From a bacterium (GTDB lineage: Bacteria; Elusimicrobiota; Elusimicrobia; UBA1565; UBA9628): a DNA stretch of 64,000 nucleotides. Both the position numbers and the translations under genes were made by a program. Under the pieces are notes generated by a model. It was not told the origin of the DNA. It saw nothing but the letters and a program-made list of their open reading frames with translations, and searched no databases. Shown piece after piece: positions 32,666 through 47,083 of the stretch (its first letter is position 1; each line of letters starts with the position of its first letter). The DNA lies in NCBI GenBank assembly GCA_021822495.1, contig JAKAQO010000001.1, forward strand, positions 186,001-250,000, in the 5' to 3' direction.

Positions 32666-33001
32666 ATGTCAAACAATCAGGAACTCATCTTCAAGATCAA
32701 AGCGGATTTCCTTAAGTCGCTCGCGCACCCCATCCGACTCGAGATCATCGAATATCTGAAGAACAAGGAAGCCTCCGTCGGCGCGATGGTCAAGGGGCTG
32801 GGCGTCGAACAGTCGGGGCTTTCGAAGCATCTGGCCGTCCTGCGCCAAGCCGGCATCCTGATTTCTCGCCAGGAAAAGGCGACCGTCTATTATTCGGTTC
32901 GGGACAAGGACATTTTCCATATCCTCCGGCCGATCGCGGAGATACTGCGAAAGAAGCTCAGCGAGACAAATGAGATGCTCGCGCATCTGGGAAAGCCGTG
33001 A
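32666..33001 (+). CDS. ArsR-family winged-helix regulator, copy 1
   Basis: 111 residues. ADFLKSLAHPIRLEIIEYLK is the ArsR/SmtB opening, VEQSGLSKHLAVLRQAGIL the recognition helix region, and SRQEKATVYYSVRD the wing. There is no cysteine in the protein and no ELCVCDL metal site, so it is not a thiol or classic metal sensor. By eye it is identical to the regulator at 46748-47083 at 82 of 111 positions, with the same recognition helix. It probably controls the small-gene cassette downstream and the facing hyf operon. Confidence 0.9.
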   Translation: MSNNQELIFKIKADFLKSLAHPIRLEIIEYLKNKEASVGAMVKGLGVEQSGLSKHLAVLRQAGILISRQEKATVYYSVRDKDIFHILRPIAEILRKKLSETNEMLAHLGKP

Positions 33002-33016
33002 ATATTTTTTTGTCTA

Positions 33017-33040
33017 ATATATGAACTATTCATCCTATAA
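33017..33040. promoter_or_regulatory. 24-nt operator candidate, copy A
   Basis: On the minus strand it reads TTATAGGAT, seven bases, TCATATAT. The same two half-sites with identical spacing lie at 44697-44720 upstream of the hyf operon, the only other copy I found. It sits between arsR1 and the 33074 gene, overlapping the probable promoter. Confidence 0.6.
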
Positions 33041-33073
33041 GAATATAGTTTCGGTGGCATACCGGAGGGCGCC

Positions 33074-33361
33074 ATGAGCTCCCCTGATCAAGGCCGCGCG
33101 AACGACAGTCTCAAATTCGGCCCGGGCATCGTGGAGTTGCGGCACATCGCGTCCAAGATATACGGAATCCGCGTTCGGCGCTATCTCGTCGCCAAGCTCA
33201 AGAACGTGCGGGAGTTGAGCCAGGCCAATCCACGGAGCGACCTATTCTGCGTACAGGTGGACGCCATGAACAACTCGCCGGAGGGAGCCTTGAAGCGTTT
33301 CAAGGAAATCGTCGCCAAGGCCGGATTGGGATCGTTTTTCGGGGTCGGCGGTGACCGGTAG
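33074..33361 (+). CDS. small protein of unknown function
   Basis: 95 residues, soluble, mixed charge: VELRHIASKIYGIRVRRYLV is followed by a single Cys (DLFCVQVDA) and SPEGALKRFKEIVAKAGLG. No signal peptide or membrane segment. Good ribosome site (CCGGAGGG) before ATG 33074. It opens a cassette of five small genes (33074-34366) between arsR1 and the facing hyf operon. Family not recognised. Confidence 0.65.
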   Translation: MSSPDQGRANDSLKFGPGIVELRHIASKIYGIRVRRYLVAKLKNVRELSQANPRSDLFCVQVDAMNNSPEGALKRFKEIVAKAGLGSFFGVGGDR

Positions 33362-33367
33362 ATTTCC

Positions 33368-33610
33368 ATGAATCAACCTTGCTGGCTCAAACTGACTCCT
33401 GAAGAATGCCGGCAGAGGATACTGGCCGACCCCAAGGACCTGGAGGCCCGGCTGGTAATGGGTATGACCTACCGTCTCTGCGGCGATCATCGAGCCGCAA
33501 TCGAGATGTGGATGTCGATCTTGGAGATCAATCCCTCCCACGACCCGGCCAAGCAGCTTCTCCGTTCCCTGGAGAAGGAGCTCGACAAGGGCTTAATCCA
33601 TCTCCAATGA
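33368..33610 (+). CDS. small TPR-like protein
   Basis: 80 residues: LTPEECRQRILADPKDLEAR, then LVMGMTYRLCGDHRAAIEMW and MSILEINPSHDPAKQLLRSL. The pattern of two helix pairs with 'LxxNPxxxxA' spacing is one to two tetratricopeptide-like repeats, usually a protein-protein contact module. It overlaps the next gene by ATGA. A helper or assembly role for the neighbouring complex is inference. Confidence 0.65.
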   Translation: MNQPCWLKLTPEECRQRILADPKDLEARLVMGMTYRLCGDHRAAIEMWMSILEINPSHDPAKQLLRSLEKELDKGLIHLQ

Positions 33611-33924
33611 ACACGAACGCCGAGCCGCAGCTGGAAGTCCCAGGGGAAAGCCGGAGGAAGCGCATCGCGAAACTGCTGGTCTGTTGCGATGAAAGACTCC
33701 AGACACATCCCGACGACATGGCAAGTCTGATGGAAATCAGCGAGGCAATGTGGGATATGGGACGGCGCGTCGAAGCGCTCGAATTTTCCCGGAAGGTCTT
33801 GGCGCGTCACCCGGGCCACGCTGGGATGAGGGAAGTCATCCAACGTTATATGAGCAAGTTGGGCGGCGCCAGCTCGAGAGGATTTCCGCCGCAGAGAGAC
33901 GGAAAAGGAGAAGAAACAAAATGA
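33607..33924 (+). CDS. small TPR-like protein
   Basis: 105 residues. Basic N-terminal part, then CCDERLQTHPDDMASLMEIS, EAMWDMGRRVEALEFSRKVL and ARHPGHAGMREVIQRYMSKL, again one to two TPR-like units, and a polar tail. The start at 33607 gives an ATGA overlap with the 33368 gene, and its own end overlaps the 33921 gene. Possibly a diverged relative of the preceding TPR-like protein. Confidence 0.62.
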   Translation: MNTNAEPQLEVPGESRRKRIAKLLVCCDERLQTHPDDMASLMEISEAMWDMGRRVEALEFSRKVLARHPGHAGMREVIQRYMSKLGGASSRGFPPQRDGKGEETK

Positions 33925-34127
33925 CTGACATAGTTTATGAATGCGCCGTGAACAATACGCATCCGCAAAAGAAATTCGCGGTAACGCAGACGCAGCCGCC
34001 GGTCTGTTGCCAGAGGCCGATGATCCTGCTTAAGGCCGCCGCGCCGAGCCTGGCCTCGCAGACAGCCCCAATGATGGGCAAGTCGAAGCACGCGTCCGCC
34101 AAGGCGACGCCGGCGCAGAAGAAATAG
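33921..34127 (+). CDS. small Cys/His protein, possible zinc ribbon
   Basis: 68 residues. VYECAVNNTHPQKKF followed by QPPVCCQRPMILL places Cys8, His14, Cys29 and Cys30 as possible metal ligands; the CC-x-x-PM end resembles rubredoxin/desulfoferrodoxin-like knuckles. The tail is Lys/Ala/Ser-rich. The start at 33921 has GGAG upstream and a four-base overlap with the 33607 gene. Could be a small redox or metal-carrier protein for the adjacent iron-sulfur complex (inference). Confidence 0.55.
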   Translation: MTDIVYECAVNNTHPQKKFAVTQTQPPVCCQRPMILLKAAAPSLASQTAPMMGKSKHASAKATPAQKK

Positions 34128-34186
34128 TTGGGGAGGAGCGTCTCAAAGCGAAGGTCCCGGCTTAAAGGGACGAGGAGATAAAGCGA

Positions 34187-34366
34187 ATGAAAACAGTAAA
34201 GAGAGTTAGTTTGGAATTGTTTGCGGCGGTCTTTGCCGTTGGACTGCTGGGATGCCAGAAGGCTCCGGCGCCAACGGATCAGCCGGCATCGCCCGCCGCG
34301 CTCACCCCGGCGACCACGGGGCAGGCCGCCGCGCCCGTCGTTCCCGCCCAGCCTCCGAGGTCGTAA
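34187..34366 (+). CDS. short lipoprotein
   Basis: 59 residues. Lys-rich start, hydrophobic helix, and a textbook lipobox LLGC at Cys23, followed by an Ala/Pro/Thr-rich tail (KAPAPTDQPASPAALTPAT). GAGGAG sits upstream of ATG 34187. The mature part is a flexible, low-complexity linker without a fold, so it might tether the outer membrane or act as a small pilot-like protein. Last gene of the small cassette; convergent with the DUF167 gene. Confidence 0.6.
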   Translation: MKTVKRVSLELFAAVFAVGLLGCQKAPAPTDQPASPAALTPATTGQAAAPVVPAQPPRS

Positions 34367-34390
34367 TCAAAGAGGCGGTTTAAGACTATC

Positions 34391-34627
34391 TCAGGCGCCG
34401 CCCAAAAGCGTAACGATCTTGCTCGGCGCGTTCGAGCCTTTGATGATGCGCAGGCGCTTGGGATCGACGCCGAGGCGCCTGCCGAGCAGGGCGAGGACGG
34501 ATTGATTGGCACGGCCCTGCTCCGGCTTGGCGCGCACCCAGACCGCGAAGGCGTTAGGCCCGGTAGAGACGATCAGGTCGCGCTTGTCTCCGGCGCGCAC
34601 CTTAACGCGGAACAGCGTCGCGGTCAT
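34391..34627 (-). CDS. DUF167 (YggU-family) protein
   Basis: 78 residues: FRVKVRAGDKRDLIV, then AFAVWVRAKPEQGRANQSVL, ALLGRRLGVDPKRLRIIKGS and SKIVTLL. These are the conserved DUF167 features (VKVxPxAxxxxV, then PxxGxANxxLxxxLAxxLxV, then GxxSRxK). Function unknown across the family. It starts inside the hyfI gene (26-base overlap) and ends the hyf operon. Confidence 0.85.
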   Translation of the reverse strand: MTATLFRVKVRAGDKRDLIVSTGPNAFAVWVRAKPEQGRANQSVLALLGRRLGVDPKRLRIIKGSNAPSKIVTLLGGA

Positions 34628-35447
34628 TCTTCGTTTCCCCGCCCCGTTCTCTCGATGCCTCTCGGACGCGGTTTTCCTTGAGCCTTCCGAGAAGCCTCAG
34701 CATCCCATCCAAGATGGTGACGGGATGCGGCGGGCAACCCGGAATAAAGAGATCGACGGGCACCACTGAAGCGGCGCCGCCCAACTGCTCATTCGAGCCG
34801 ATGAACGGCCCGCCGCTGATGCCGCAGGCGCCCACGGCGATGACGATGCGCGGAGGCGGGACGGCTTCGTAGGCGATGCGGAGGGCCTCGCTCATGTTTC
34901 GCGTCACCGGGCCGGTAACCACAAGGCCGTCCGCGTGGCGTGGCGAAGCCACGAACTGAACGCCGAAACGCCCCAGGTCGAAGACGACGTTGCCGAGCGC
35001 CGTCAGTTCCGCCTCGCAGGCGCTGCAACCGCCCGCGCTCACCTGGCGCAGCTTGAGGGAGCGTCCGAAGATGCGACGCATCTCCTGTCCCAAAGACTCG
35101 GCCAGCCTGGCCTCCTCTGAGGTCACCAGTAAATCCCCGCGTCGGCTGGCCGCCAAGCGGTGGTCTTTGGTGAAAGTGACGGCGCCCTCGGGACAGGCCG
35201 CCGTGCACTCGGCGCAAAAGAGGCAACGCCCCAGATCGAGGGCGAGCAAACCCTTCTCGTCGCCGGGTTGTCGCTGTTCGAGCGCCCGCGTGGGACAAGC
35301 GTCGACGCAGGCCGCGCAGCCCGCGACGCAAAGCTCCGGCCTGAGGACGGGCCGCCCCCGGAAGCGCTCCGGAAGGCCAGGGTCCTCGCCGGGAAACTTC
35401 GAGGTCCGATAGCCTTGCTTGATTCGGTTTTTTAGGATGTCGATCAT
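34602..35447 (-). CDS. hyfI: HyfI/NuoB-like small subunit fused to an 8Fe ferredoxin domain
   Basis: 281 residues. N-terminal ferredoxin-like domain with two cluster motifs, Cys40/44/47/51 and Cys75/78/81/85 (like HycF/HyfH/NuoI). The NuoB/hydrogenase-small-subunit domain binds the N2-type cluster with Cys141, Cys144, Cys208 and Cys238 (GGCSACEAE, VGACGISGG, IPGCPPHP). All twelve ligands are intact. In most Hyf systems these are two proteins; here they are fused. It passes electrons to the large-subunit interface. 12 bases after hyfG. Confidence 0.88.
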   Translation of the reverse strand: MIDILKNRIKQGYRTSKFPGEDPGLPERFRGRPVLRPELCVAGCAACVDACPTRALEQRQPGDEKGLLALDLGRCLFCAECTAACPEGAVTFTKDHRLAASRRGDLLVTSEEARLAESLGQEMRRIFGRSLKLRQVSAGGCSACEAELTALGNVVFDLGRFGVQFVASPRHADGLVVTGPVTRNMSEALRIAYEAVPPPRIVIAVGACGISGGPFIGSNEQLGGAASVVPVDLFIPGCPPHPVTILDGMLRLLGRLKENRVREASRERGGETKNDRDAVPR

Positions 35448-35459
35448 GAAAGGTCCATG

Positions 35460-36935
35460 CTACAAGTCATGCCCGGCATAAGAGAGATTGAAGCTCTTGT
35501 TGCACAGCGGAAAATCCGATATCTCGCCTCCGCGCAGAGCCATGGCGACGCCGATCCAGTTGTGAAACGACGGATCGAAAACCTGGTACCACTCGTATTT
35601 CCCGTCGCGGCCGGTCTTGGCGATATGGCAGACCTCGCCGCGCCACCCCTCGATGAGCGAGACCGCAATCTGATTAGCCGCGGGCGCGCCGCAAGGGACA
35701 GCGCTTTTTCCCTCCGGAAGATGCCCCAGCAGACCTCGCAAGAATTCGAGGGACCGCTGCGCTTCCAGGAATCTCACCATCGCTCGAGCGAACACATCGC
35801 CGGAATCCAGTCTCATGACGGGGATATACCGGAAGCGGTAGAGCCCGAAAGGATGATCCTGCCGAACGTCCCGGTCGACTCCGGCCGCCCTGGCGCAGAC
35901 TCCGACCAATCCCAAGTCGTCGCAGACCTTCGAGGAAATGACGCCGACGCCCTCCAAGCGAGAGATCACGGAGGGCTCGCCGAAAAACATATTTCCGACC
36001 TCCCGAACCTGAACGATGGAGCGCTTGACGGTCTCGATCATCTGGGCCCGCATCTCATCGGGCAGGTCGAAAGCCGCGCCGCCCGGCTTGAGGATGCCCT
36101 TGCCGTAGCGGTTTCCGGAGACGAGCATCAGCATATTGAGGAAATCGCCGCGCATGCGCCCAAAATACGCCGCCGCGGGGAGATAGCCGACGTCGTTACT
36201 GATCGCGCCGAGATCCCCGATGTGATTGGCGAGACGCTCCGCCTCCAGGAGAACGGCGCGAATCGCTTCGGCCCTCAGGCTAGGGGCGCATCCTGACAGA
36301 GCCTCCCAGACCGCGCAATAGGCCCAGGCGTGCGCGACGGCGGTATCGCCGCAGATCGACTCGGCCACGGCCAAGCTCCGTCGATCCAGGCCGGCGCTCA
36401 GCAGGCGCCGCGCGCCGCGATGCTGGTAGCCGAGCTGTATCTCCAGGTGGTGCACCGTCTCGCCGTGACATTGAAAACGGAAATGCCCTGGTTCGATGAT
36501 GCCGGCGTGAATTGGGCCCACCGCCACCTCGTGAATCTCGGCGCCCTCCTCCTTAAAAAACGCGACCTTGTCGGGCGGAACAAGGCGCACGGGCTTAAGC
36601 CAGGGATGCCCTTCCGGCACAATGCCGCAGTCCTCGTGAATCTCGCGCTCGAAAAGATGCGCCTGGGGAAGGTCGGGCGTCAGAGAAGGGTAGCGCGCCA
36701 TGGGCTGGGACGCCGCCAAAAACAGCTTGCCGCCAGCGTCGTCGGCCAGCACGGCGAGAAGGCCGCCCGCCGTCCGATCCTTCTTGGCGTCGCGAACCAA
36801 GGCGCAAAGACGGTGACCCGTTGCGGCCATTTTAAGGATGGAGGAGCGGAATTCCTCGACCGACACGACCGGGACCTTGGAAAAGTCGACGGCCTCCCCA
36901 TTTCGGATCGAGGCGAAGCGCGAGGTCGGGCTCAT
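35460..36935 (-). CDS. hyfG: HyfG/HycE-like large subunit without intact nickel site
   Basis: 491 residues: a NuoC-like N-terminal domain (about 1-125) fused to a 49-kDa/[NiFe] large-subunit domain (HFRFQCHGETVHHLEIQLGY onwards). Hydrogenases bind Ni-Fe by two CxxC pairs. Here the first reads SICGDTAVAH (Cys195, Thr198) and the last PLCNKSFNLSYAGHDL (Cys478, Ser481), so one Cys of each pair is gone. This matches the 'energy-converting hydrogenase-related' (Ehr) type as I know it, and argues against hydrogenase activity. The C-terminus lacks the usual His cleavage site. Start by ATGA overlap with hyfF. Confidence 0.88.
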   Translation of the reverse strand: MSPTSRFASIRNGEAVDFSKVPVVSVEEFRSSILKMAATGHRLCALVRDAKKDRTAGGLLAVLADDAGGKLFLAASQPMARYPSLTPDLPQAHLFEREIHEDCGIVPEGHPWLKPVRLVPPDKVAFFKEEGAEIHEVAVGPIHAGIIEPGHFRFQCHGETVHHLEIQLGYQHRGARRLLSAGLDRRSLAVAESICGDTAVAHAWAYCAVWEALSGCAPSLRAEAIRAVLLEAERLANHIGDLGAISNDVGYLPAAAYFGRMRGDFLNMLMLVSGNRYGKGILKPGGAAFDLPDEMRAQMIETVKRSIVQVREVGNMFFGEPSVISRLEGVGVISSKVCDDLGLVGVCARAAGVDRDVRQDHPFGLYRFRYIPVMRLDSGDVFARAMVRFLEAQRSLEFLRGLLGHLPEGKSAVPCGAPAANQIAVSLIEGWRGEVCHIAKTGRDGKYEWYQVFDPSFHNWIGVAMALRGGEISDFPLCNKSFNLSYAGHDL

Positions 36936-38377
36936 GACGCGCCTCCGTTGAGCAACCTCGCCGCGCCGCTCAAAACTGCGGTCAGTCGGCCCGGCAGCCA
37001 CAAGCCGAGGAAAACGACGAGCGCCATGAAGACCATCGGGGCCGCGATCATGAGCGGAGAATCCCCCTGCGCGGAAAGTTCAGAATCGCTGTTCGGCGGG
37101 ATCCCATAGACCACGGACAGGACGGTCGTGGCCATGCCGATAAAGATGACGGCGAGCAAACCGACAAATCCGAGGGCGACTCCGAACCGGTGGCCGTCAA
37201 CAGCCGCGCGCAGGATGGAGAACTCACTGACAAACGGGGCGAACGGAGGCGAGCCCGTGATGGCCACAAATCCAAGCAGAAAAAGCGTCGCCGAGATCGG
37301 CGCTCGGCGCAACGCTCCTCGAACATGATCCATGGTCTTGCCTCCGAAGGCGCGGTGAATATTTCCCGCCGAGAGAAACAAGACGCCCTTGGTCAGGCCA
37401 TTGTTGATGAGATGCAACAGCGCCGCGAAGCTCCCCGCCGGGCCAAGTCCCACGCCTAAGGCGAGGATGCCCATGTGCTCCACGCTAGAGTAGGCCAGCA
37501 TCCTTTTAAAGTCGCGCTGGCCAATGATAAAGACGGCGGCGGTCGCCATGGAGAGAAGCCCTATCATGACGAGCAAGCCCTGGGCGAACTCGGAAAGCCC
37601 GGCGGCGGCGCAGATTTGGAACGCTCGAAGTATGCCCAGAAAAGGGCAGGCCGTGATGACGCCGGCCAGAATCGCTCCGGCCACGCCTGGAGACTCGCCA
37701 TAGGCATCCGGCTTCCAGGAGTGAAGCGGGGCCAAGCCCATCTTCGTCCCGTAGCCGACCAACAGAAATATGAAGGCTCCTTTGAGCCACGGCAACGATA
37801 GCGTCCCCGCTCGGGAGAGGAGGGTATCGATGAGCAGGGGATCGCCGCGCCCCTCGAAGGGGATCGCGGCGAGAGCGAGGAAAAAGGTTCCCAGTAGCGC
37901 CAATCCGATGCCGAGAGAACCCATCATCAAGTATTTCCAGGTCGCCTCCAGGGATTTTTCGTTATGGTTGAAATACACGAGGGGCGCCGTCGCCAGCGTG
38001 GCCGCCTCCATGCCGACCCACAGAATTCCCATGTGCCGGCTCACGGCTACCAGGCTCACGGAAGCCAGAATGAAGGAGAGACAAGCCGTGAAGAGACGGT
38101 TGCGCCTTTCCTTGCGCAAGCGCAAGTATTCCAGGCAGTAGACGGAGCAGACGAGAAACATCACGCTCGCCAGGCTCAGGACGATCAAGCCCAGATCGTC
38201 GATCCGGAACCAGCCGTTCATGGCGGGCCCCGGCAACGTCTTCCAGCACGCCGCCACGATCGAGGCGTGGATCGTACAGCCGAAAGGAAGAAGCCACGGC
38301 CGCCGCTCGTCGCTATCCACGACGAGGGCCAACAACCCGACGAGGAGAGGCGCGCCGACCAGGAGAAGGTAGATCAT
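36932..38377 (-). CDS. hyfF: HyfF-like proton/cation-pumping membrane subunit (NuoN/MrpD family)
   Basis: 481 residues, about 13-14 transmembrane helices of the Proton_antipo_M family. Key stretches: GMEAATLATAPLVYFNHN (the TM5 Glu region), LVGYGTKMGLAPLHSWKPDA (TM7 Lys, then the broken helix), DFKRMLAYSSVEHMGILALG and GLTKGVLFLSAGNIHRAFG. Charged residues needed for proton transfer are present. With hyfB1 and hyfB2 it gives three antiporter-like subunits in the complex. Confidence 0.88.
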   Translation of the reverse strand: MIYLLLVGAPLLVGLLALVVDSDERRPWLLPFGCTIHASIVAACWKTLPGPAMNGWFRIDDLGLIVLSLASVMFLVCSVYCLEYLRLRKERRNRLFTACLSFILASVSLVAVSRHMGILWVGMEAATLATAPLVYFNHNEKSLEATWKYLMMGSLGIGLALLGTFFLALAAIPFEGRGDPLLIDTLLSRAGTLSLPWLKGAFIFLLVGYGTKMGLAPLHSWKPDAYGESPGVAGAILAGVITACPFLGILRAFQICAAAGLSEFAQGLLVMIGLLSMATAAVFIIGQRDFKRMLAYSSVEHMGILALGVGLGPAGSFAALLHLINNGLTKGVLFLSAGNIHRAFGGKTMDHVRGALRRAPISATLFLLGFVAITGSPPFAPFVSEFSILRAAVDGHRFGVALGFVGLLAVIFIGMATTVLSVVYGIPPNSDSELSAQGDSPLMIAAPMVFMALVVFLGLWLPGRLTAVLSGAARLLNGGAS

Positions 38378-38435
38378 GCTAGGCCTCGACCCTTCGGGCT
38401 CGGCACAGACGCGCAGAGGAAAGGTTCATAGCGTT

Positions 38436-39080
38436 CTAGTCGCTCAAGCGCGTCAGCTTTTCCGTGCTGATGGAGTCGAAGGCGCGCGCGATGTGATTGA
38501 TGATGATTCCCATGACGAACACGGCGACGAAGACGTCAAGCAACACGCCCATCTCGATGATCCACGGAACCTGGTAGGCGATGGCCAGGCCGAAGAGGTA
38601 AACGCCGTTCTCGAAGACGAGGTAGCCGATGACCTGGGAAACCGCCTTGAATCGACTGATCATCATGAGCATCCCCATCATGACCGTCGCCAAAGACACC
38701 GGAATCAGCAGACTCGTCCTAAGTCCCGCGGGCACCGGAAGCCGTTCGGCGAGCGCGAAGGACACGCCGATGAGCGCCGCGCCGATCAAAAGCGACGGGA
38801 TATAGCCGATCATCGGTTCCATCTCGCGCCGGATCTTCACTTCGCGGATGGCATAGAGCAGCACCCACGGGATTGCGAAGCCCTTGAGGATGAACATGCC
38901 GGCCGCCAGTAGGAGACCCTGGGGATGAAAGCCCTCCGCGCGGACGGTCAGGGGCAACACGCCCAGGCACATCCCTTGCAAGGCCACGATCTTGATGCAT
39001 CCCGTCAAGGAAGACGACCCGAGCAGGTAGAGGCTCAGGAAGACGATGAAGGCGAGCAGCAGTTGCGAGAGTTGTCCCAT
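38436..39080 (-). CDS. hyfE: HyfE-like membrane subunit
   Basis: 214 residues, about seven transmembrane helices (LLLAFIVFLSLYLLGSSSL, then IGYIPSLLIGAALIGVSFAL). It resembles NuoK with additional helices, as in HyfE/MrpC-type proteins. FENGVYLFGLAIAYQVPWIIE contains the conserved Glu pair position of this family. Sits in the standard hyf order between hyfC and hyfF, with four bases from hyfC. Confidence 0.82.
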   Translation of the reverse strand: MGQLSQLLLAFIVFLSLYLLGSSSLTGCIKIVALQGMCLGVLPLTVRAEGFHPQGLLLAAGMFILKGFAIPWVLLYAIREVKIRREMEPMIGYIPSLLIGAALIGVSFALAERLPVPAGLRTSLLIPVSLATVMMGMLMMISRFKAVSQVIGYLVFENGVYLFGLAIAYQVPWIIEMGVLLDVFVAVFVMGIIINHIARAFDSISTEKLTRLSD

Positions 39081-39084
39081 TGTC

Positions 39085-39984
39085 TTATCTCAAGGTGAGA
39101 ATGAGCCCGAAGGTCGCCGCGCAAATTGCGGCGACCAGGAGTTGGGGCACCCGGATCAGCCGCAAGCGCGCCATGCTCGACTCGACCAAACCAATGACGA
39201 CCGCCGTCGCGGCCAGCCCCAGGACCAGCGATCCGACGCGCCCCGCAACGGGCATCTCGGGCAGGACCAGCCACACCAACAGGCTGGCCATGAGCACGAG
39301 TTTTAAGCCCGCCCCATGAAGGATGAAGGCAAGGTCGGGCCCGCCGTGATCCAGGACCATCACCTCGTGAATCATGGTAAGCTCAAGGTGCGTGTTCGGG
39401 TCGTCGACCGGTATCCGGGAGTTCTCCGCCAAGAGCACGACGAAGAGGCTGCCCAAGGCCAGGACGGCGCTGGCCGCAGAGCCTGGGCCGCCGTGGGGAG
39501 CGAACATCCGCGCCAAGGAGAGTTCACCGGACCGGTAGGCCAAGCTCGCGAAGGCCAGGATCAGCGCCGGCTCGGCGAGGCTCGAGAAAGCCACTTCACG
39601 GCTGGCGCCCATGCCCTCAAAGCTCGAACCCGTGTCCAGAGCCGCGGTGACCGTGACGAAACGGCCGAGCGCGAGCAAGTAAACGAAGAGAATCGCGTCC
39701 CCGTTAAAGGAGATGAGCGGCGTTCCGCTCAGGGGAACGAGGGACGAGGCGGCGAGGACGGCGGCCAGCGATACGACGGGACCGAGCCGGAACATCCAGG
39801 TCGTGGTCGTGCTGTAGACGGCTCCCTTGCGCAAGAGCTTAAGCGTATCGTAGAGCGGCTGCAGGACCGGCGGGCCCTTGCGGCCGGCGACGACGGCTTT
39901 CGTCTTGGTGATAATTCCCAGCATGACAGGCGGCGCGAAGACGAGCATCACGAGGTAGGACGCCACGAGTTTTAAAGTTTCCAT
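39085..39984 (-). CDS. hyfC: HyfC/NuoH-like membrane anchor subunit
   Basis: 299 residues, about eight transmembrane helices. Complex-I subunit-1 family signs: VAGRKGPPVLQPLYDTLKLL (quinone-channel loop of NuoH) and LAENSRIPVDDPNTHLELTM (ExxRxPxDxPxxHxELT), which in NuoH/HycD connects the soluble arm to the pumping arm. Start at 39984 (METLKLV) overlaps hyfB2 by 13 bases; a longer in-frame start at 40104 has no homology. Confidence 0.88.
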   Translation of the reverse strand: METLKLVASYLVMLVFAPPVMLGIITKTKAVVAGRKGPPVLQPLYDTLKLLRKGAVYSTTTTWMFRLGPVVSLAAVLAASSLVPLSGTPLISFNGDAILFVYLLALGRFVTVTAALDTGSSFEGMGASREVAFSSLAEPALILAFASLAYRSGELSLARMFAPHGGPGSAASAVLALGSLFVVLLAENSRIPVDDPNTHLELTMIHEVMVLDHGGPDLAFILHGAGLKLVLMASLLVWLVLPEMPVAGRVGSLVLGLAATAVVIGLVESSMARLRLIRVPQLLVAAICAATFGLILTLR

Positions 39985-41948
39985 AGAAGGATGATCACGA
40001 GGAAGGCCGAGACGTAAAGGAGATAGAGCTGGAGCCGTCCGTGTTGGAGCCGACGCGGCAGCGAAAGCCACTCCTCGAATTTCGTCGTCAGGACCGGGAG
40101 CCAACGTTCCAGCGCCGGGTCGGGCGTCCTGCTTTCAAAAGCGGCCTTGCCCGGCCAATAGCCGAGCGGCGGATGGACCTCCTCCCGAGTCGCCAGCGCC
40201 GCCGCGAAGACCCTCGTCAGCGGCATGGAATAAGACGAGCCCGTGTATTGCATCCGAGTCGTAGGCGCGGTAAAGCCGCAGCCCCAGGTAGGCCCCAACT
40301 CGACCTCGCGCCGCCGCAGGAGCGCGCTCCGAAACAGCCACAAAAGCGCGCTTAAGGCGCAGACCCCGGCGCCGAACAACCCGATGACTTCGAGAAGGCA
40401 TGACCACTCCTCAAGGCTTGCCGAGACGGTAAGCCTCGCTTGCCCAACCACGTCGCTGGCGGCCGCGAAGGCCACATGAAGCGCCAAAGACGGAAACAAA
40501 CCGATTGCGACGCAAAGCGCGGCCAGAAGCGCCATCGGGCCGAGCATGATCCAGAAAGGATCGCGCGCATCCCGCGCTCCCTCGGAACGCGGCTGGCCGA
40601 GGCAGGTCAAACCGTAGCACTTGGAAAACGCCGCCACGGCGAAAGCCCCGATGACGGACAGGGCCGCGGCGGCCAGGGCGGCGAAGAAAATCCCATGACC
40701 GATACCCGGCCGCAACAGCCAGCTGTAGATCAGCCATTCTCCCATAAAACCGTTGAGCGGGGGCAGGCCGCAGATGGCCGCGGCTCCGACCGCCATAAGA
40801 CCGCAAGTCCACGGCATGCGCTTCTGCAGCCCGCCGCAGGCCTCGATGTCCCTCGTGCCAACCGCTTGGTAGACGGCGCCAGCCGAAAGGAATAGAAGCG
40901 ATTTGAACAGTCCGTGGTTAAGCGTATGAAGGATCGCTCCGGCAAAGCCGAGCAAAGCCAGGAAGAAATTATGCTTGGCTAAGCCATAACACCCAAGACC
41001 GGCTCCGGTGAGGATGATGCCGATATTTTCGATGCTGCTGTAGGCGAGCAGTCGCTTGAAGTCGCGTTGCGCCATCGCAAAGGTAATGCCGAAAACGGCG
41101 GTGACGAGGCCCAGGGCGACGAGGAAGAACGCCGCCTCAAGTGAGACCGGACCCAAGAGGGAGAGTAGCCGGAGCAGGCCGTAGAGGCCCATCTCGATCA
41201 TCACGCCCGACATGGCCGCTGAGGCGTGGCTCGGCGCGGCGGGGTGGGCCTCCTGGAGCCAGATATGCAGCGGCATGAAGCCCGCCTTCATGCCGAAGCC
41301 AACCAACGCAAGCAGAAAGACCGCCGCGCGTTCGGCGGCGGGTAGAGCCGGGGCCGCCGCGAAAGAGCTGAACTCCAGCGAACCCGCATTGCTCCCCAGG
41401 AGCGCGAATAACGCGAGCAAGCAAAGAGAGCCGACATGCGTGCATAGAAGATACAGCAACCCCGCCTTGCGGACCTCGGGTTTGCCGTGCTCGCAGGAGA
41501 CCAGTCCGAAAGCGGCCAAAGCCATCGTCTCCCAGGCGATCATGAACAGAAGAGCATTACGGGCGGCGACGAGGAGGGCCATCGCGCCCACCAAGACAAG
41601 GAAGAAAAAACGGGCGGGAGTCGCGGGAATGTGGCCGTGCGAACCCGCGATATAGCCCTCGCCGTAGAGGCCGGCGCAGCAACCGACGACTAGGACGAGT
41701 AGAAGAAAACAGGCGGACAAGGAATCCATTCCGATATGGAATACGGCGCCGGGCACAAGCCAAGGCCAAAGAAGGTCGGACGCCCCTTGCCCCGCGAGCG
41801 TCCGCCAAACAAGCGTCCCTCCGGCGATGGCCGCCCCCGCCAGACCGGCGATCACGATGTTCCTCGCCCAACGATCATGCCGCGACATGAGGCCAGACAG
41901 GAGAGCCGCGACGCCGAGCGCGAGAACGGCGACCAAGAGTAGCATCAT
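39972..41948 (-). CDS. hyfB: HyfB-like antiporter subunit, copy 2
   Basis: 658 residues, Proton_antipo_M family (NuoL/MrpA-like) with about 16 helices. Conserved stretches: FMIAWETMALAAFGLVSCEH, LVGFGMKAGFMPLHIWLQEA, FKRLLAYSSIENIGIILTGA, and a C-terminal extension ATRMQYTGSSYSMPLTRVFA shared with HyfB1. The two proteins are close paralogues of near-equal length. ATGA overlap with the upstream EIIA gene. Confidence 0.88.
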   Translation of the reverse strand: MMLLLVAVLALGVAALLSGLMSRHDRWARNIVIAGLAGAAIAGGTLVWRTLAGQGASDLLWPWLVPGAVFHIGMDSLSACFLLLVLVVGCCAGLYGEGYIAGSHGHIPATPARFFFLVLVGAMALLVAARNALLFMIAWETMALAAFGLVSCEHGKPEVRKAGLLYLLCTHVGSLCLLALFALLGSNAGSLEFSSFAAAPALPAAERAAVFLLALVGFGMKAGFMPLHIWLQEAHPAAPSHASAAMSGVMIEMGLYGLLRLLSLLGPVSLEAAFFLVALGLVTAVFGITFAMAQRDFKRLLAYSSIENIGIILTGAGLGCYGLAKHNFFLALLGFAGAILHTLNHGLFKSLLFLSAGAVYQAVGTRDIEACGGLQKRMPWTCGLMAVGAAAICGLPPLNGFMGEWLIYSWLLRPGIGHGIFFAALAAAALSVIGAFAVAAFSKCYGLTCLGQPRSEGARDARDPFWIMLGPMALLAALCVAIGLFPSLALHVAFAAASDVVGQARLTVSASLEEWSCLLEVIGLFGAGVCALSALLWLFRSALLRRREVELGPTWGCGFTAPTTRMQYTGSSYSMPLTRVFAAALATREEVHPPLGYWPGKAAFESRTPDPALERWLPVLTTKFEEWLSLPRRLQHGRLQLYLLYVSAFLVIILLWKL

Positions 41949-42595
41949 CCGAGTTGCCTCAAGCGAGCGAGCAGTTCAAGCGCCGGCGCGGGCTTGCCGA
42001 GCAACCGCCGAAAGTCGGCGTCGTGGAGGGCGGCGGCGACCTTCTCCAGGAGGGCCAGATGGGCGCGGACCGTGGGGCTGACCAAGGTCCAGACGATCTG
42101 GACGGGAGGATCATCGGCTTCCTTGAAGGATACCGCGTTCCTCAAGAAACACAGAGTCACGATCGGAAAATCAACGCCGAAGATCAGTGGGCTGCGCGCG
42201 TGAGGGATGGCGATGCCGTCGATGACGGTCGCGCCCCTGGCCTCACGGTCCCAAAGCGCCTGCGCCGCCAGAGCCTTGTCTCGGGGACTCGCCAACGGCA
42301 GGCGCTCCGCCACGGCCGCCAGCACGTCCTTCTTATCGGCGCCGGGGACATCGTAGTGGATGTTGCCCTCCAACAGAGAATCAAGCCGGTAGGAGGCTCC
42401 CCTGCCCTCCGGGAACTGATAAAGCGCGGCCGCCGGAATCCTGCGGTGATTGGCCCATTCCAGAAGGTCCACCCGGTTGAACCGGTAGCGACCGTTGATC
42501 ATGAACGCCGGAAGACCCTCATCCTTGATCCACCGCGAGATCCTCGATTCGGGAACCCCAAGAATCTTCGCCGCGTCGCGCAGACTTAAATCCAT
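41945..42595 (-). CDS. HTH-PTS EIIA fusion protein (IIA-Ntr type)
   Basis: 216 residues. About 1-55 is an excisionase/MerR-like helix-turn-helix (LSLRDAAKILGVPESRISRW, then RYRFNRVDLLEWA). About 70-216 is a PTS EIIA type-2 domain with the phosphorylatable His132 in GIAIPHARSP and the trailing VRAHLALLEKVAAALHD. It is embedded between the two hyfB genes with coupled spacing (13 bases, then ATGA). It would sense PTS phosphorylation state (PEP/pyruvate ratio or nitrogen) and either bind DNA or bind the membrane complex. The start at 42595 is set by the HTH homology. Confidence 0.88.
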   Translation of the reverse strand: MDLSLRDAAKILGVPESRISRWIKDEGLPAFMINGRYRFNRVDLLEWANHRRIPAAALYQFPEGRGASYRLDSLLEGNIHYDVPGADKKDVLAAVAERLPLASPRDKALAAQALWDREARGATVIDGIAIPHARSPLIFGVDFPIVTLCFLRNAVSFKEADDPPVQIVWTLVSPTVRAHLALLEKVAAALHDADFRRLLGKPAPALELLARLRQLG

Positions 42596-42608
42596 AGCCT
42601 CCCCTGTC

Positions 42609-44576
42609 CTAGAGTTTCCATGCCAGCAGAACCAGCAAGAACAACGCAACGGCCAACAGATAATATTGGAGCCGGCTTCTTTGCCGGCGCTTGATCCACG
42701 CCAACAGGCCCACCGTGGCGGAGCCGGCGGGGATCAACAATCCGTCCAGAACTCGGTCGTCGGCGTGGCTTGAAAATCGGGATTCCGTCGGCCAGTAGCC
42801 CGCCGGAGCGTGGAAATGCGCGCGGATGGCCAGCACGGGCGCGAAGGCGCGCGTAAGCGGCTGGGCGTAAGACGAGGCGGTATATTGCATCCGCGCCGTC
42901 GGCGCGGTGAAACCGCAGCCCCAGGTCGGACCCAAGGCGATTCGTCGGTCAAGCAGGAGAAACCGCGCGAAGGCCAATAAGCCTCCGATAACAATGACGC
43001 AGGCGCCGATGAGCCCGATCAAGCGGGCGCCGTCTAAGAAGCCGGCCAACGCGGGATGAACGGAACCCGGCGACATACCGCAGACGGTGGCGGCCGCCTG
43101 TTGCGCAAGGGAGAGCGCGGGACCCGGCCAGACGCCGATGAAAACACAGAGCGCGGCCAGCGCGGCCATCGGGAAGGTCATGACGAGTCCGGGGTCTTTC
43201 GCGGACTTGGCGGCTTCCGTTCGGGGAATGCCCAGGCAAAGGACCCCATAGGCTTTCGTAAAACAGGCCAGCGCAAGACCGCCGATAAGCGCCAGTCCGC
43301 CGATGGAAACGGCGGCCAGCCGCGCTTCGCCGGCCGTCACGGCGGAACTCGACGCCATGTACACCAGCCACTCGCTGACGAAACCGTTGAACGGCGGTAT
43401 TCCCGATATCGCCGCGGCGCCGATCAAGGAGAGCGCCGAGGTCCAGGGCATCAACCTCAAAAGCCCGCCGCCGGCCTCGATCTCCCGCGTTCCCAGCGCT
43501 TGGTGAAAAGCCCCGCTGCCAAGGAAGAGGAGCGATTTGAACAGGGCGTGATTGAGAGTATGAAGGATCGCGCCCGCGAAACCGAGGAGCGCCAACTCGG
43601 GCCTGTGATGCGAAAGCCCCAGACAACCCAATCCAAGCCCCAGCGTGATGATCCCGATGTTCTCGACGCTGTGATAGGCGAGCAAGCGCTTCAAATCGTG
43701 CTGCGCGAGAGCGAAAAGGACGCCGCCGACGCCGGACACCGCTCCCGCAAGGACCAAGACGATAGCCCATACGTCCGAGACGGAATGGAGAATCCAGATC
43801 AATCGAAGAAAACCGTAGATGCCGACCTTGATGACGGCGCCCGACATAACGGCCGACACGTGGCTCGGAGAGGCAGGATGCGCCTCCTGCAGCCAGATAT
43901 GAAACGGAGCGATGCCCGCCTTCATGCCGAAGCCGACCAACGCGAGCAAGAGTAGCAGTGTGGATTGCCCCGCGCTGGGGGGCATGACCGCCCGGATTCC
44001 CTCGAAATCCAGAGTCCCCGCCGCGCGGCCCAGGATCGCGAAAAGGACGAAAAGGGCCAGGGTGGCGGTGTGCGTGCAGATGAAGTAAAGGAGGCCCGCG
44101 CGCCGCGCCTCGGGATGTTCGTCCTCGATGATGACGAGAAAGAAGCTACTCAGCGCCATCAATTCCCAGGCGAACAGGAAGAGAATCGCGTTTTGCGCGC
44201 AGACGACCACGACGAGGGACGCCGTCAATATAAGGAACAACGGCCTCACCGACTTGCTCTTAGAGAGCCCTTCGGAACGTCGGATGTAGGCCTCGCCATA
44301 GATGCCGGACAAGAGGCTTACGATGAGCACCGTGAACAGGAAAAACGTCGAGAGGCCGTCCAGGGATACGGAAAGACGCGCCCAGGGCAGGGACCATCCC
44401 GCCGTGATTCCCGACGATCCGCTAAAAGCCGCGCTCCCAACGGCCGCCACGAGCCCGGTCAGGCAGCCCATGACCAGAAACAACAAGGACATCGCGGCGG
44501 CGATCTTGGGATATTGAGCCGTCAAGGCCGAAACGAGGGCGCCGACAAGCAATATGGAAATGGACGCGATCAGCAT
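42609..44576 (-). CDS. hyfB: HyfB-like antiporter subunit, copy 1
   Basis: 655 residues, NuoL/MrpA-like antiporter subunit; first gene of the hyf operon. Seen: FLFAWELMALSSFFLVIIED, LVGFGMKAGIAPFHIWLQEA (TM7 Lys region), LKRLLAYHSVENIGIITLGL and TARMQYTASSYAQPLTRAF at the end. Closely related to hyfB2. ATG 44576 follows a 300-base AT-rich control region. Two such subunits plus HyfF suggest multiple ion channels per complex. Confidence 0.88.
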   Translation of the reverse strand: MLIASISILLVGALVSALTAQYPKIAAAMSLLFLVMGCLTGLVAAVGSAAFSGSSGITAGWSLPWARLSVSLDGLSTFFLFTVLIVSLLSGIYGEAYIRRSEGLSKSKSVRPLFLILTASLVVVVCAQNAILFLFAWELMALSSFFLVIIEDEHPEARRAGLLYFICTHTATLALFVLFAILGRAAGTLDFEGIRAVMPPSAGQSTLLLLLALVGFGMKAGIAPFHIWLQEAHPASPSHVSAVMSGAVIKVGIYGFLRLIWILHSVSDVWAIVLVLAGAVSGVGGVLFALAQHDLKRLLAYHSVENIGIITLGLGLGCLGLSHHRPELALLGFAGAILHTLNHALFKSLLFLGSGAFHQALGTREIEAGGGLLRLMPWTSALSLIGAAAISGIPPFNGFVSEWLVYMASSSAVTAGEARLAAVSIGGLALIGGLALACFTKAYGVLCLGIPRTEAAKSAKDPGLVMTFPMAALAALCVFIGVWPGPALSLAQQAAATVCGMSPGSVHPALAGFLDGARLIGLIGACVIVIGGLLAFARFLLLDRRIALGPTWGCGFTAPTARMQYTASSYAQPLTRAFAPVLAIRAHFHAPAGYWPTESRFSSHADDRVLDGLLIPAGSATVGLLAWIKRRQRSRLQYYLLAVALFLLVLLAWKL

Positions 44577-44859: not shown

Positions 44860-44880
44860 AAAAGGGGACAGTCCCCTTTT
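44860..44880 (-). terminator. terminator of pckA (GGGGAC palindrome)
   Basis: AAAAGGGGAC-A-GTCCCCTTTT, perfect 10-base arms. In the minus direction the stem is followed by TTTT, and it overlaps the pckA stop codon, so it suits a Rho-independent terminator. It shares the GGGAC/GTCCC core with 883-903 and 21015-21033; a weaker GGGAC..GTCCC pair sits at about 44826-44841. Confidence 0.6.
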
Positions 44881-46670
44881 TACGCCGCGACCTTGGTTTT
44901 GAGGCGATTTTTGAGAGACTCAAACTGATCCCAAAGCTCCTTGGGAAGGGTCTTGCCGAATTTTTCGAAAAAGGCCTTGACCCCGTCGAGTTCCGCCGTC
45001 CAATCCTCGGACTTAACCTCAAGAAGCTTTTCAAGAGTCTGTCCGGAAATATTGAGCCCGGACAAGTCCAAGGCGTCTTTAGTCGGCACAAAACCAATGG
45101 GAGTTTTTTCGGCTTTCCCTTCTCCATGACAGCGGGATAAAATCCATTCCAAAACTCTTAGATTTTCGCCGTAACCGGGCCAGAGAAATTTCCGGTTCTC
45201 ATCTTTTCTAAACCAATTGACGTGAAAGATTTTCGGCGGCTTTGAAACCTCGCTTCCCATTTCAAGCCAATGGGCGAAATAATCTCCCATGTTGTATCCG
45301 CAGAAAGGAATCATCGCCATCGGGTCTCGGCGGACTTCGCCGATTTTGCCGTCCGCAGCCGCAGTTCTTTCGGAAGCCATCGTAGATCCGACATAGACCC
45401 CGTGAGACCAATCAAAAGACTCAAAAACTAACGGCGCCAAACGCTCCCGGCGGCCGCCGAAAATAATCGCGGAAATGGGCACGCCTTCGGGGTCTTCCCA
45501 GTTGGGAGCGATGGACGGACATTGATTGGCCGGCGAGGTAAAGCGGCTGTTGGGGTGAGCGCCTAAAACGGGCTTTCCCGCCGCGTCTTTCATTCCCGGT
45601 TTCCAGGGCTTGCCGTCCCAGGCAACGCCGGAAGCCGGCGGCTGGCCTTCCCCGTCTTCCCACCAGACGCTCAAATCATCTCCTAAAAGAACGTTGGTGT
45701 AAATGGTATTTCTGGCCATCGTCTTCATCGCGTTGGGATTGGTCTTTGAATTCGTTCCCGGCGCGACGCCAAAAAAGCCTGATTCCGGGTTTAAAGCCCA
45801 CAACCGTCCGTCTTTTCCTTTTCTCAGCCAGGCGATATCGTCTCCCAATGTCCAGATTTTGTAACCCTTGCCCTTAAGACCTTCCGGCGGAATCAACATC
45901 GCGAGATTAGTCTTTCCGCACGCGGACGGAAAAGCCGCGACGATATAATCGGTTTTGCCGTTTTTCTCGATTCCTAAAATCAACATGTGTTCGGCCAGCC
46001 ATTTTTCCTGCCGAGCCTGCCAGGACGCGATGCGCAAAGCCAGGCATTTTTTTCCCAAAAGTGCGTTTCCGCCATAAGCCGAACCGGTTGAGACAATCGT
46101 GTTGTCTTCCGGAAAATGAAGGATAAAGCGGTGCTGAACGTCCAAATCCGCGCGGGTATGGAGACACTTGGTATAGGCGCCATTAGTCCCTAATTGCTCC
46201 AAGACCTTGTCTCCCACGCGAGTCATGATCAGCATGTTTAAAACAACATAAAGGGAATCGGTAATCTCAACTCCAATTTTGGAAAAGGGGGAACCAATCG
46301 GCCCCATCGAAAAGGGGATGACATACATCGTTCTGCCGTGCATTGAGCCTTTCAAGATTTCAGCGGATTTTGCGTAACCTTCTTCCGGAGACATCCAGTT
46401 ATTAGTCGGCCCCGCGTCTTCTTTATTCTTAGAGCAGATGTAGGTTAAATGCTCGGTGCGCGCGACATCGCTGGAGTGGGAACGGCTGTAATAGCAACCG
46501 GGATATTTTTCTTGATCCAAGGGAATAATAAAACCGCGGGCAATAGCCCTTTTAGTCAGGCGATCTTTTTCGCCGGGAGTTCCGTCCACCCAATAAATTT
46601 GATCCGGTTCGCCCACTTTTGCCGTCTCGTTGACCCAATTTCCCAGTTCCTTATGTTTGATTGTTTTCAT
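44880..46670 (-). CDS. pckA: phosphoenolpyruvate carboxykinase (GTP)
   Basis: 596 residues, the GTP-type length. Converts oxaloacetate plus GTP to PEP and CO2 (gluconeogenesis, or the reverse for anaplerosis and ATP/GTP yield). Seen: the kinase P-loop AFPSACGKTNLAMLIPPEG, the substrate region YYSRSHSSDVARTEHL, WTLGDDIAWLRKGKDG and the GTP-binding FHVNWFRKDENRKFLWPGYG. GGAGGA is upstream of ATG 46670. It follows arsR2 in the same direction after 77 bases containing ATATTC/TCATAT-like half sites. Confidence 0.96.
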   Translation of the reverse strand: MKTIKHKELGNWVNETAKVGEPDQIYWVDGTPGEKDRLTKRAIARGFIIPLDQEKYPGCYYSRSHSSDVARTEHLTYICSKNKEDAGPTNNWMSPEEGYAKSAEILKGSMHGRTMYVIPFSMGPIGSPFSKIGVEITDSLYVVLNMLIMTRVGDKVLEQLGTNGAYTKCLHTRADLDVQHRFILHFPEDNTIVSTGSAYGGNALLGKKCLALRIASWQARQEKWLAEHMLILGIEKNGKTDYIVAAFPSACGKTNLAMLIPPEGLKGKGYKIWTLGDDIAWLRKGKDGRLWALNPESGFFGVAPGTNSKTNPNAMKTMARNTIYTNVLLGDDLSVWWEDGEGQPPASGVAWDGKPWKPGMKDAAGKPVLGAHPNSRFTSPANQCPSIAPNWEDPEGVPISAIIFGGRRERLAPLVFESFDWSHGVYVGSTMASERTAAADGKIGEVRRDPMAMIPFCGYNMGDYFAHWLEMGSEVSKPPKIFHVNWFRKDENRKFLWPGYGENLRVLEWILSRCHGEGKAEKTPIGFVPTKDALDLSGLNISGQTLEKLLEVKSEDWTAELDGVKAFFEKFGKTLPKELWDQFESLKNRLKTKVAA

Positions 46671-46747: not shown

Positions 46748-47083
46748 TCAAGAAACTCCCAAGTGCGAAAGAATTTCCTGGCCTTCCTTGAGTCTCTTGG
46801 CCAAAATCTCGGCAATGGGCCGCAAAATTCTGAAAATATCACGATCCCGAATGGAGTAATAGACCGTCACCTTCTCTTGCCTTGAACTCACAATGCCTGA
46901 TTGTCGCAAAATCGCCAAATGCTTGGAAAGACCGGACTGTTCCACGCTTAAATTTTTTACCATCTCGCCAACGGAAGATTCCTTGTCTTTCAGGTATTCA
47001 ATAATCTGAAGCCTGACCGGATGCGCCAAGGACTTAAGGAAATCCGCCTTGATCTTAAACACCATCTCCTCGTTTTTTTGCAT
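46748..47083 (-). CDS. ArsR-family winged-helix regulator, copy 2
   Basis: 111 residues, the same length as arsR1 (32666-33001) and identical at 82 of 111 positions by eye, including VEQSGLSKHLA in the recognition helix. It also lacks cysteine, so it is not an As/Cd/Zn thiol sensor. It lies 17 bases after kdpE and directly before pckA. ATATTCT at 47082-47088 overlaps its own start codon, and TCATATAC is adjacent (47091-47098 complement), suggesting autoregulation at sites like those of the hyf promoter. Confidence 0.9.
   Translation of the reverse strand: MQKNEEMVFKIKADFLKSLAHPVRLQIIEYLKDKESSVGEMVKNLSVEQSGLSKHLAILRQSGIVSSRQEKVTVYYSIRDRDIFRILRPIAEILAKRLKEGQEILSHLGVS

Follow-up and report, generated by a model that had tools for sequence, protein, structure and literature searches.

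What does a hydrogenase-like membrane complex do once its nickel site has gone? An operon in a 64,000-nucleotide stretch of an Elusimicrobiota genome raises this question (assembly GCA_021822495.1, contig JAKAQO010000001.1, positions 186,001 to 250,000 of the forward strand; hereafter the window). Complexes of the Ehr (energy-converting hydrogenase-related) type have been described as a missing link from hydrogenases to complex I. We find that the complex encoded here is almost certainly an Ehr complex and not a hydrogenase, and that its operon carries a gene, named HTH-EIIA below, for a likely regulator of the phosphotransferase system (PTS) type. The best overall explanation of its activity, which we put forward at somewhat less than even confidence, is a ferredoxin-fed, ion-pumping, nickel-free oxidoreductase that probably reduces quinone.

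The operon (34602-44576, minus strand) comprises eight closely packed genes, listed here in order of transcription.

42609..44576, minus strand: hyfB1, antiporter-like membrane subunit (EhrA/NuoL-like), 655 residues; PF00361, 6.7e-53
41945..42595, minus strand: HTH-EIIA gene, 216 residues, excisionase-type helix-turn-helix plus PTS EIIA-2; PF12728, 7.9e-13, and PF00359, 1.3e-18
39972..41948, minus strand: hyfB2, second antiporter-like subunit, 658 residues; PF00361, 1.5e-53, and NF005086, 1.8e-166
39085..39984, minus strand: hyfC, NuoH-like membrane anchor, 299 residues; PF00146, 4.3e-33
38436..39080, minus strand: hyfE, 214 residues, C-terminal half NuoK-like; NF008556 (hydrogenase 4 membrane subunit), 4.1e-27
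36932..38377, minus strand: hyfF, antiporter-like subunit, 481 residues; PF00361, 1.5e-45, and NF005044 (hydrogenase 4 subunit F), 2.1e-89
35460..36935, minus strand: hyfG, large subunit (EhrL); alignment with HycE, AlphaFold2 model and structure match
34602..35447, minus strand: hyfHI, small subunit, 281 residues; PF12838, 3e-9, and PF01058, 1.2e-28

The genes are separated by overlaps of 4-13 bp up to gaps of at most 58 bp, and because of this tight spacing a single transcript is likely. An earlier note on this DNA had placed a seven-gene operon (hyfB, hyfB, hyfC, hyfE, hyfF, hyfG and hyfI) at the same coordinates and on the same strand, and open reading frames and profile matches bear it out. 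It overlooked the HTH-EIIA gene, which follows hyfB1 after a 13-bp gap and overlaps hyfB2 by 4 bp. hyfB1 matches the hydrogenase 4 subunit B profile NF005086 at 3.7e-166, a score under that profile's curated cut-off. The hyfG frame opens upstream with a GTG at 37001, and the start is most likely the ATG at 36935, which overlaps the hyfF stop by 4 bp. We number HyfG residues from the GTG, so that they exceed those of the earlier note by 22. The NuoL-like, NuoH-like, HyfE-like, large and small subunits of the ehrABCDLS set are all present, in the window as in its relatives; the Ehr operon has no NuoEFG NADH module, and no second Ehr copy was found in the genome.

We aligned 119 Ehr-type proteins with E. 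coli HycE, HyfG and NuoCD. The four nickel ligands of HycE, C241, C244, C531 and C534, correspond to C217, T220, S507 and G510 of the window HyfG, so that by this alignment HyfG retains one of four nickel ligand positions, and that one is itself variable across Ehr-type proteins. The position of C241 is Ala in 87 proteins, Ser in 17, Cys in 13 and another residue in 2. The other three positions are occupied by a new and nearly fixed set of residues: Thr (94) or Ser (17) at C244, together 111 of 119; Ser at C531 in 118 of 119; and Gly at C534 in all 119. A sequencing error at the nickel codons was ruled out by the occurrence of the same motifs in independent genomes. The hyfG codons concerned are as follows.

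36492-36494, minus strand: Glu170
36351-36353, minus strand: C217
36342-36344, minus strand: T220
35502-35504, minus strand: C500, the cysteine misplaced in the earlier note
35481-35483, minus strand: S507
35472-35474, minus strand: G510

The earlier note described HyfG as having lost one cysteine of each nickel pair. This holds for the first CxxC, which reads C217/T220 (its 195/198); the second pair has lost both, S507/G510. The residues it took for the second motif, C478/S481, are C500/S503 in the sequence DFPLCNKSF, which aligns upstream of the HycE motif DPCYSC when HycE, HyfG and L061, a genuine group 4 hydrogenase of the same class, are compared. Thus only C217, and not both Cys195 and Cys478 of the earlier numbering, sits at a ligand position. 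L061 has intact motifs at both sites, CGIC and DPCYCC.

Structure leads to the same result. In phmmer searches against solved structures, HyfG matched formate hydrogenlyase HycE best (6e-47), with Pyrococcus MBH next and complex I third. Its AlphaFold2 model (pLDDT 88.6) has HycE (7z0s_E) as top PDB match, with a Z score of 46.6 and a root-mean-square deviation of 2.3 over 474 aligned residues. The final aligned pair is model residue 511 with HycE 537, which allows a slip of about two residues; even with such a slip, the model places cysteine at no distal ligand position. The HyfG C-terminus falls at the position of HycE R537, without a maturation peptide.

A functional [NiFe] hydrogenase with unusual ligands would be in keeping with this HycE-like fold. 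We give it next to no credence, since one ligand of four remains and is unconserved in relatives, HypD was not found (see below) and the maturation peptide is missing. As read from the alignment, HyfG does not contain the two nickel-binding CxxC motifs that define [NiFe] group 4 hydrogenases. The idea of C217 as a relic of a hydrogenase ancestor, implied by a half-kept nickel site, did not hold up either: the position is variable, and parsimony on a quick tree in which the Ehr root has low support (0.495) gives the Ehr ancestor a Ser, with Cys gained twice. C217 is therefore probably a secondary gain.

Phylogeny agrees with the loss of ligands. In an IQ-TREE analysis of 50 rows, which included Geomonas and Rhodococcus loci and left out G. 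sulfurreducens GSU0739-0745, all 41 Ehr rows formed one side of a branch with 100/100 support and a length of 1.21. E. coli HycE, E. coli HyfG, MbhL, L061 and complex I lay on the opposite side. The window protein thus did not fall among proven [NiFe] hydrogenases, the placement that the earlier note had named as refuting its assignment to Ehr, and that assignment stands. Ehr as a kind is already known, a nickel-free member of the complex I/group 4 hydrogenase superfamily, with ehrABCDLS complexes described from Geobacter and others (Coppi 2005 and Marreiros 2013, as named in PMC6688271; also PMC10284858 and PMC8691401). The window complex shares with the Geobacter type its gene set and the loss of CxxC nickel ligands, and like it resembles group 4 hydrogenases as well as complex I. 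The clade of the window HyfG includes a Geomonas locus, and a Geobacter argillaceus locus has the same operon. The window complex differs in the HTH-EIIA gene between the two hyfB genes and in C217, at the first ligand position, which is Ala or Ser in most relatives. The hyc-like EHR of M. tuberculosis (Rv0081-Rv0087; PMC6728331) is likewise a hydrogenase-like complex without hyp genes, with the ArsR-family gene Rv0081 adjoining. M. tuberculosis itself lay outside our search; in the Rhodococcus homologue that was examined, HTH-EIIA was not found and the small subunit gene comes first.

Some Ehr loci are duplicated. Two genomes, G043 and G026 (L039 and L044), carry a second, divergent Ehr operon (42-46% identity) beside the first and without its own HTH-EIIA; a Variovorax locus (L070) and a Verrucomicrobia locus (L114) have two Ehr operons each.

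We then considered what the complex has kept. HyfG Glu170 and Arg454, equivalent to HycE Glu193 and the canopy residue Arg478, are invariant in 119 of 119 proteins. HycE Glu193 has been proposed to exchange protons with the terminal nickel cysteine (PMC9474812, which also describes the canopy Arg). The NKSFNLSY motif is also kept. The small subunit, which the earlier note called HyfI, is in fact a fusion of an N-terminal 2x[4Fe-4S] ferredoxin-like (HyfH) domain to a NuoB/HyfI-like domain, and the twelve intact Fe-S ligands reported for it are all there. Its proximal motif is the hydrogenase-type GGCSACE (CxxC) and not the tandem CC of complex I (cluster N2). The complex resembles E. coli formate hydrogenlyase and hydrogenase 4 (HycE, HyfG) in subunit types, in best structure match and in the equivalents of Glu193 and Arg478; it differs from them in having no nickel ligands, HycB/HyfA, formate dehydrogenase or HypD.

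These features bear on a comparison with Pyrococcus MBS/Mbx, which are also nickel-free and ferredoxin-fed and have antiporter-like modules (PMC7684303). With a hydrogenase-like cavity persisting here, the complex could reduce sulfane sulfur (polysulfide) as archaeal MBS does, the catalytic site being a proximal [4Fe-4S] cluster that lacks full coordination. We consider this unlikely. The MBS hallmark, a proximal motif three residues shorter with three Cys ligands, is absent; HyfHI aligns gap-free with HycG/HyfI, without MBS-type shortening, and retains the CxxC. The Glu lost in MBS (MbhL E21) is kept in all 119 Ehr-type proteins, so that both proximal motif and Glu are retained as in hydrogenases, and HyfG matches MBS more weakly (72 bits) than it does MBH (140) or formate hydrogenlyase (164). 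MBS/Mbx chains were not among the best 50 structural matches listed for the HyfG model, which is uninformative on fold.

In the membrane arm, HyfB1 has all four NuoM pump residues (Glu in transmembrane helix 5, Lys in helices 7 and 8, Glu in helix 12). HyfB2 and HyfF have three of four each, with the helix 8 Lys replaced by Glu and Ala, respectively, and HyfC keeps the GASRE motif and acidic loop in part. Three antiporter-like subunits with most pump residues intact, and KdpDE genes near the locus here and in congeners, would also fit an ion antiporter under regulation, its hydrogenase-like module sensing redox only, with no net turnover. Against this, all twelve Fe-S ligands, the NKSFNLSY motif and the Glu and Arg of the proton path have been retained, which suggests catalysis, and an antiporter of this kind seems improbable.

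The earlier note was right to leave the electron donor and acceptor as an open question; the content of the genome, the assembly of which is estimated to be 94.7% complete, narrows the choices. It had also noted that no hyp or formate dehydrogenase genes lie nearby, and the absence extends genome-wide for the genes searched. HypD, the only hyp gene covered by our search, was found neither in this genome nor in four congeners; it was above cut-off in 15 of 57 relatives searched and in control genomes such as E. coli. A genome-wide search for formate dehydrogenase was negative, the sole molybdopterin-family match being NuoG of complex I. A formate-linked complex, as suggested for Riflemargulisbacteria and proposed for related complexes (FDH-Ehr; PMC6349859), is for this reason highly improbable here, the more so as the docking extension is missing: HyfHI is without the C-terminal four-Cys metal extension of HycF, which contacts HycB of the formate dehydrogenase arm (PMC9474812). 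With this extension gone, ferredoxin-type input remains. The genome encodes KorAB, a ferredoxin-dependent 2-oxoacid oxidoreductase, next to sucCD (named by eye), and KorAB can produce reduced ferredoxin. Rnf was found neither here nor in those members of the family whose genomes were searched. Ferredoxin is thus the probable electron donor.

The ferredoxin-type input domain and the older Mbx literature would also accommodate a ferredoxin:NAD(P)+ oxidoreductase, a role at one time suggested for Pyrococcus Mbx (PMC6349859); neither the operon nor the genes that recur alongside it include a subunit that binds flavin or NAD(P), and we think this very unlikely. As to quinone, the genome carries complex I genes elsewhere, two COX1 (heme-copper oxidase) genes and two UbiA-family genes, which together imply a quinone pool and quinone-linked aerobic respiration.

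We further investigated the HTH-EIIA gene. Its EIIA-2 domain carries the phospho-acceptor His132 (codon 42200-42202) and the partner His179 (42059-42061), both invariant in 64 of 64 copies, and EI and HPr are present in the genome. In family and in both active-site histidines it is like PtsN/fructose-type EIIA; it differs in its fusion partner, an excisionase-type DNA-binding domain, and in its location in the Ehr operon. Homologues, full-length or cut by contig ends, occur in 24 of 57 genomes, either within the Ehr operon or at the end of a contig that contains part of that operon, and no full-length homologue was found outside Ehr-operon genomes among these 57. In a named genome collection, HTH-EIIA accompanies 43 of the 60 Ehr operons with enough upstream sequence, across about ten phyla (Planctomycetota, Verrucomicrobiota, Lentisphaerota, Thermodesulfobacteriota, Myxococcota, Gemmatimonadota, Omnitrophota, Zixibacteria, Fibrobacteres and Spirochaetota), and it lies beside the Ehr operon in Geomonas limicola and Geobacter argillaceus. 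An EI-HPr-RapZ-HprK-HPF gene cluster (RapZ and HPF named by eye) is found about 26 kb from the operon. It is likely, judging from this association, that HTH-EIIA regulates the Ehr operon. We found no published description of the link between EIIA and Ehr in a search that lacked most subscription journals, so that its absence from the literature is not established.

Several loci vary on this arrangement. A Planctomycetales locus (L106:518-2001) has two tandem HTH-EIIA genes ahead of the operon, and a Verrucomicrobiia locus (L153) also has two matches; in a Planctomycetaceae locus (L104), HTH-EIIA immediately precedes hyfG and hyfHI, and membrane subunits were not found upstream. In Paraburkholderia, the Ehr operon has an HPr-family gene no more than 3 kb away (L072:3751-4014), and spermidine synthase-like genes recur by betaproteobacterial Ehr operons (L070, L072). 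A GTP-type phosphoenolpyruvate (PEP) carboxykinase gene at 44880-46670 adjoins the Ehr operon here and in congeners and is near the operon in other genera (L034, L037, L039); the enzyme makes PEP, which is the donor for the EI-HPr-EIIA relay.

In the mechanism we propose for a ferredoxin-fed pump, reduced ferredoxin, for example from KorAB, would dock on the HyfH domain of HyfHI. Electrons would pass through the two [4Fe-4S] clusters of HyfH and reach the proximal cluster in HyfI; an acceptor would then be reduced in the HyfG/HyfI/HyfC cavity, the site of nickel in hydrogenases. The likeliest acceptor would be a membrane quinone, a possibility we advance tentatively. The redox reaction could then drive proton or sodium translocation via HyfB1, HyfB2 and HyfF. 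HTH-EIIA, phosphorylated by the EI-HPr phosphorelay and so following the PEP state, would probably set operon transcription, with an ArsR-type repressor probably acting as a second control. The donor, the acceptor, ion pumping and the direction of regulation are the inferred elements of this scheme.

Several points weigh against this scheme. In complex I, two residues have been proposed as ligands of the quinone headgroup, Nqo4 H38 and Y87 (PMC7684303); HyfG has I169/E170 and G218 in their place, and because of this the acceptor is the weakest step of the mechanism. The futalosine menaquinone enzymes MqnA/D, which might have given direct proof of quinone, were not found in the genome. Beside Ehr operons, neither a dedicated ferredoxin gene nor any other redox partner recurs; clustering of neighbouring open reading frames gave only ArsR, signalling proteins and antisense artefacts. 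Finally, the regulatory target of HTH-EIIA is assumed from gene position only.

The same complex might also run in reverse, with an ion gradient pushing quinol electrons uphill to ferredoxin. Members of the complex I/group 4 hydrogenase superfamily can run in both directions, and a respiring cell without Rnf might need low-potential electrons. KorAB already provides reduced ferredoxin, though, and the reverse direction strikes us as rather unlikely.

The operon was clearly acquired horizontally, and one of the neighbouring regulators travels with it; neither the transfer nor this ArsR partner features in the earlier note.

32666..44576, no strand: horizontally acquired cassette (ArsR-a and the operon; boundaries approximate), from its GC and identity pattern
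32666..33001, plus strand: ArsR-a, ArsR-family regulator; PF01022, 6.4e-10

The GC content of the operon is 62-64% in 2-kb windows, against 45-54% in the rest of the window; its genes have 60-66% GC each and 76-85% GC at third codon positions, and the PEP carboxykinase, ArsR-b and Kdp genes 45-51% GC. Operon proteins show 81-92% identity to their counterparts in another genus (G018), mostly 70-90% to those of further genera and a second family, and only 46-74% to those of four congeners, whose own Ehr operon is likewise near the PEP carboxykinase gene or asnB. The flanking proteins, PEP carboxykinase, ArsR-b, KdpE and KdpD, are 77-93% identical to their congeneric counterparts. ArsR-a groups with the foreign set, at 89% identity to the ArsR by the closest operon in another genus and 76-78% to the ArsR of congeners. 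On this pattern it looks as if the native Ehr operon was replaced by a foreign one, ArsR-a included. Two ArsR-family regulators now flank the operon, ArsR-a (32666-33001) and ArsR-b (46748-47083), of which one is probably imported (it matches foreign loci) and one native (it matches congeners). ArsR homologues lie near the Ehr operon in the window and at 14 other loci, an arrangement reminiscent of Rv0081 in M. tuberculosis (PMC6728331).

Altogether, the family-wide counts indicate that the nickel site of Ehr is gone, not half kept, with a fixed new motif in its place, which points to a distinct chemistry. It is conceivable, at distinctly less than even confidence, that a widespread Ehr lineage is a nickel-free ferredoxin-driven ion pump with the signature GDT plus DFPLCNKSFNLSY-A/C-GHDL, under direct PEP-phosphorelay control by the HTH-EIIA of the same operon in about ten phyla, its synthesis or activity thereby following the PEP state. 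With KorAB present, no Rnf or formate dehydrogenase found and quinone-linked respiration, a ferredoxin-quinone role becomes testable. If HTH-EIIA is confirmed as the regulator, the Ehr machine would be tied to PEP signalling, which would give an inducing condition under which to seek its activity, for instance in Geobacter or Geomonas species in culture, and the recurrent link to EIIA offers a new handle on the reaction of Ehr.

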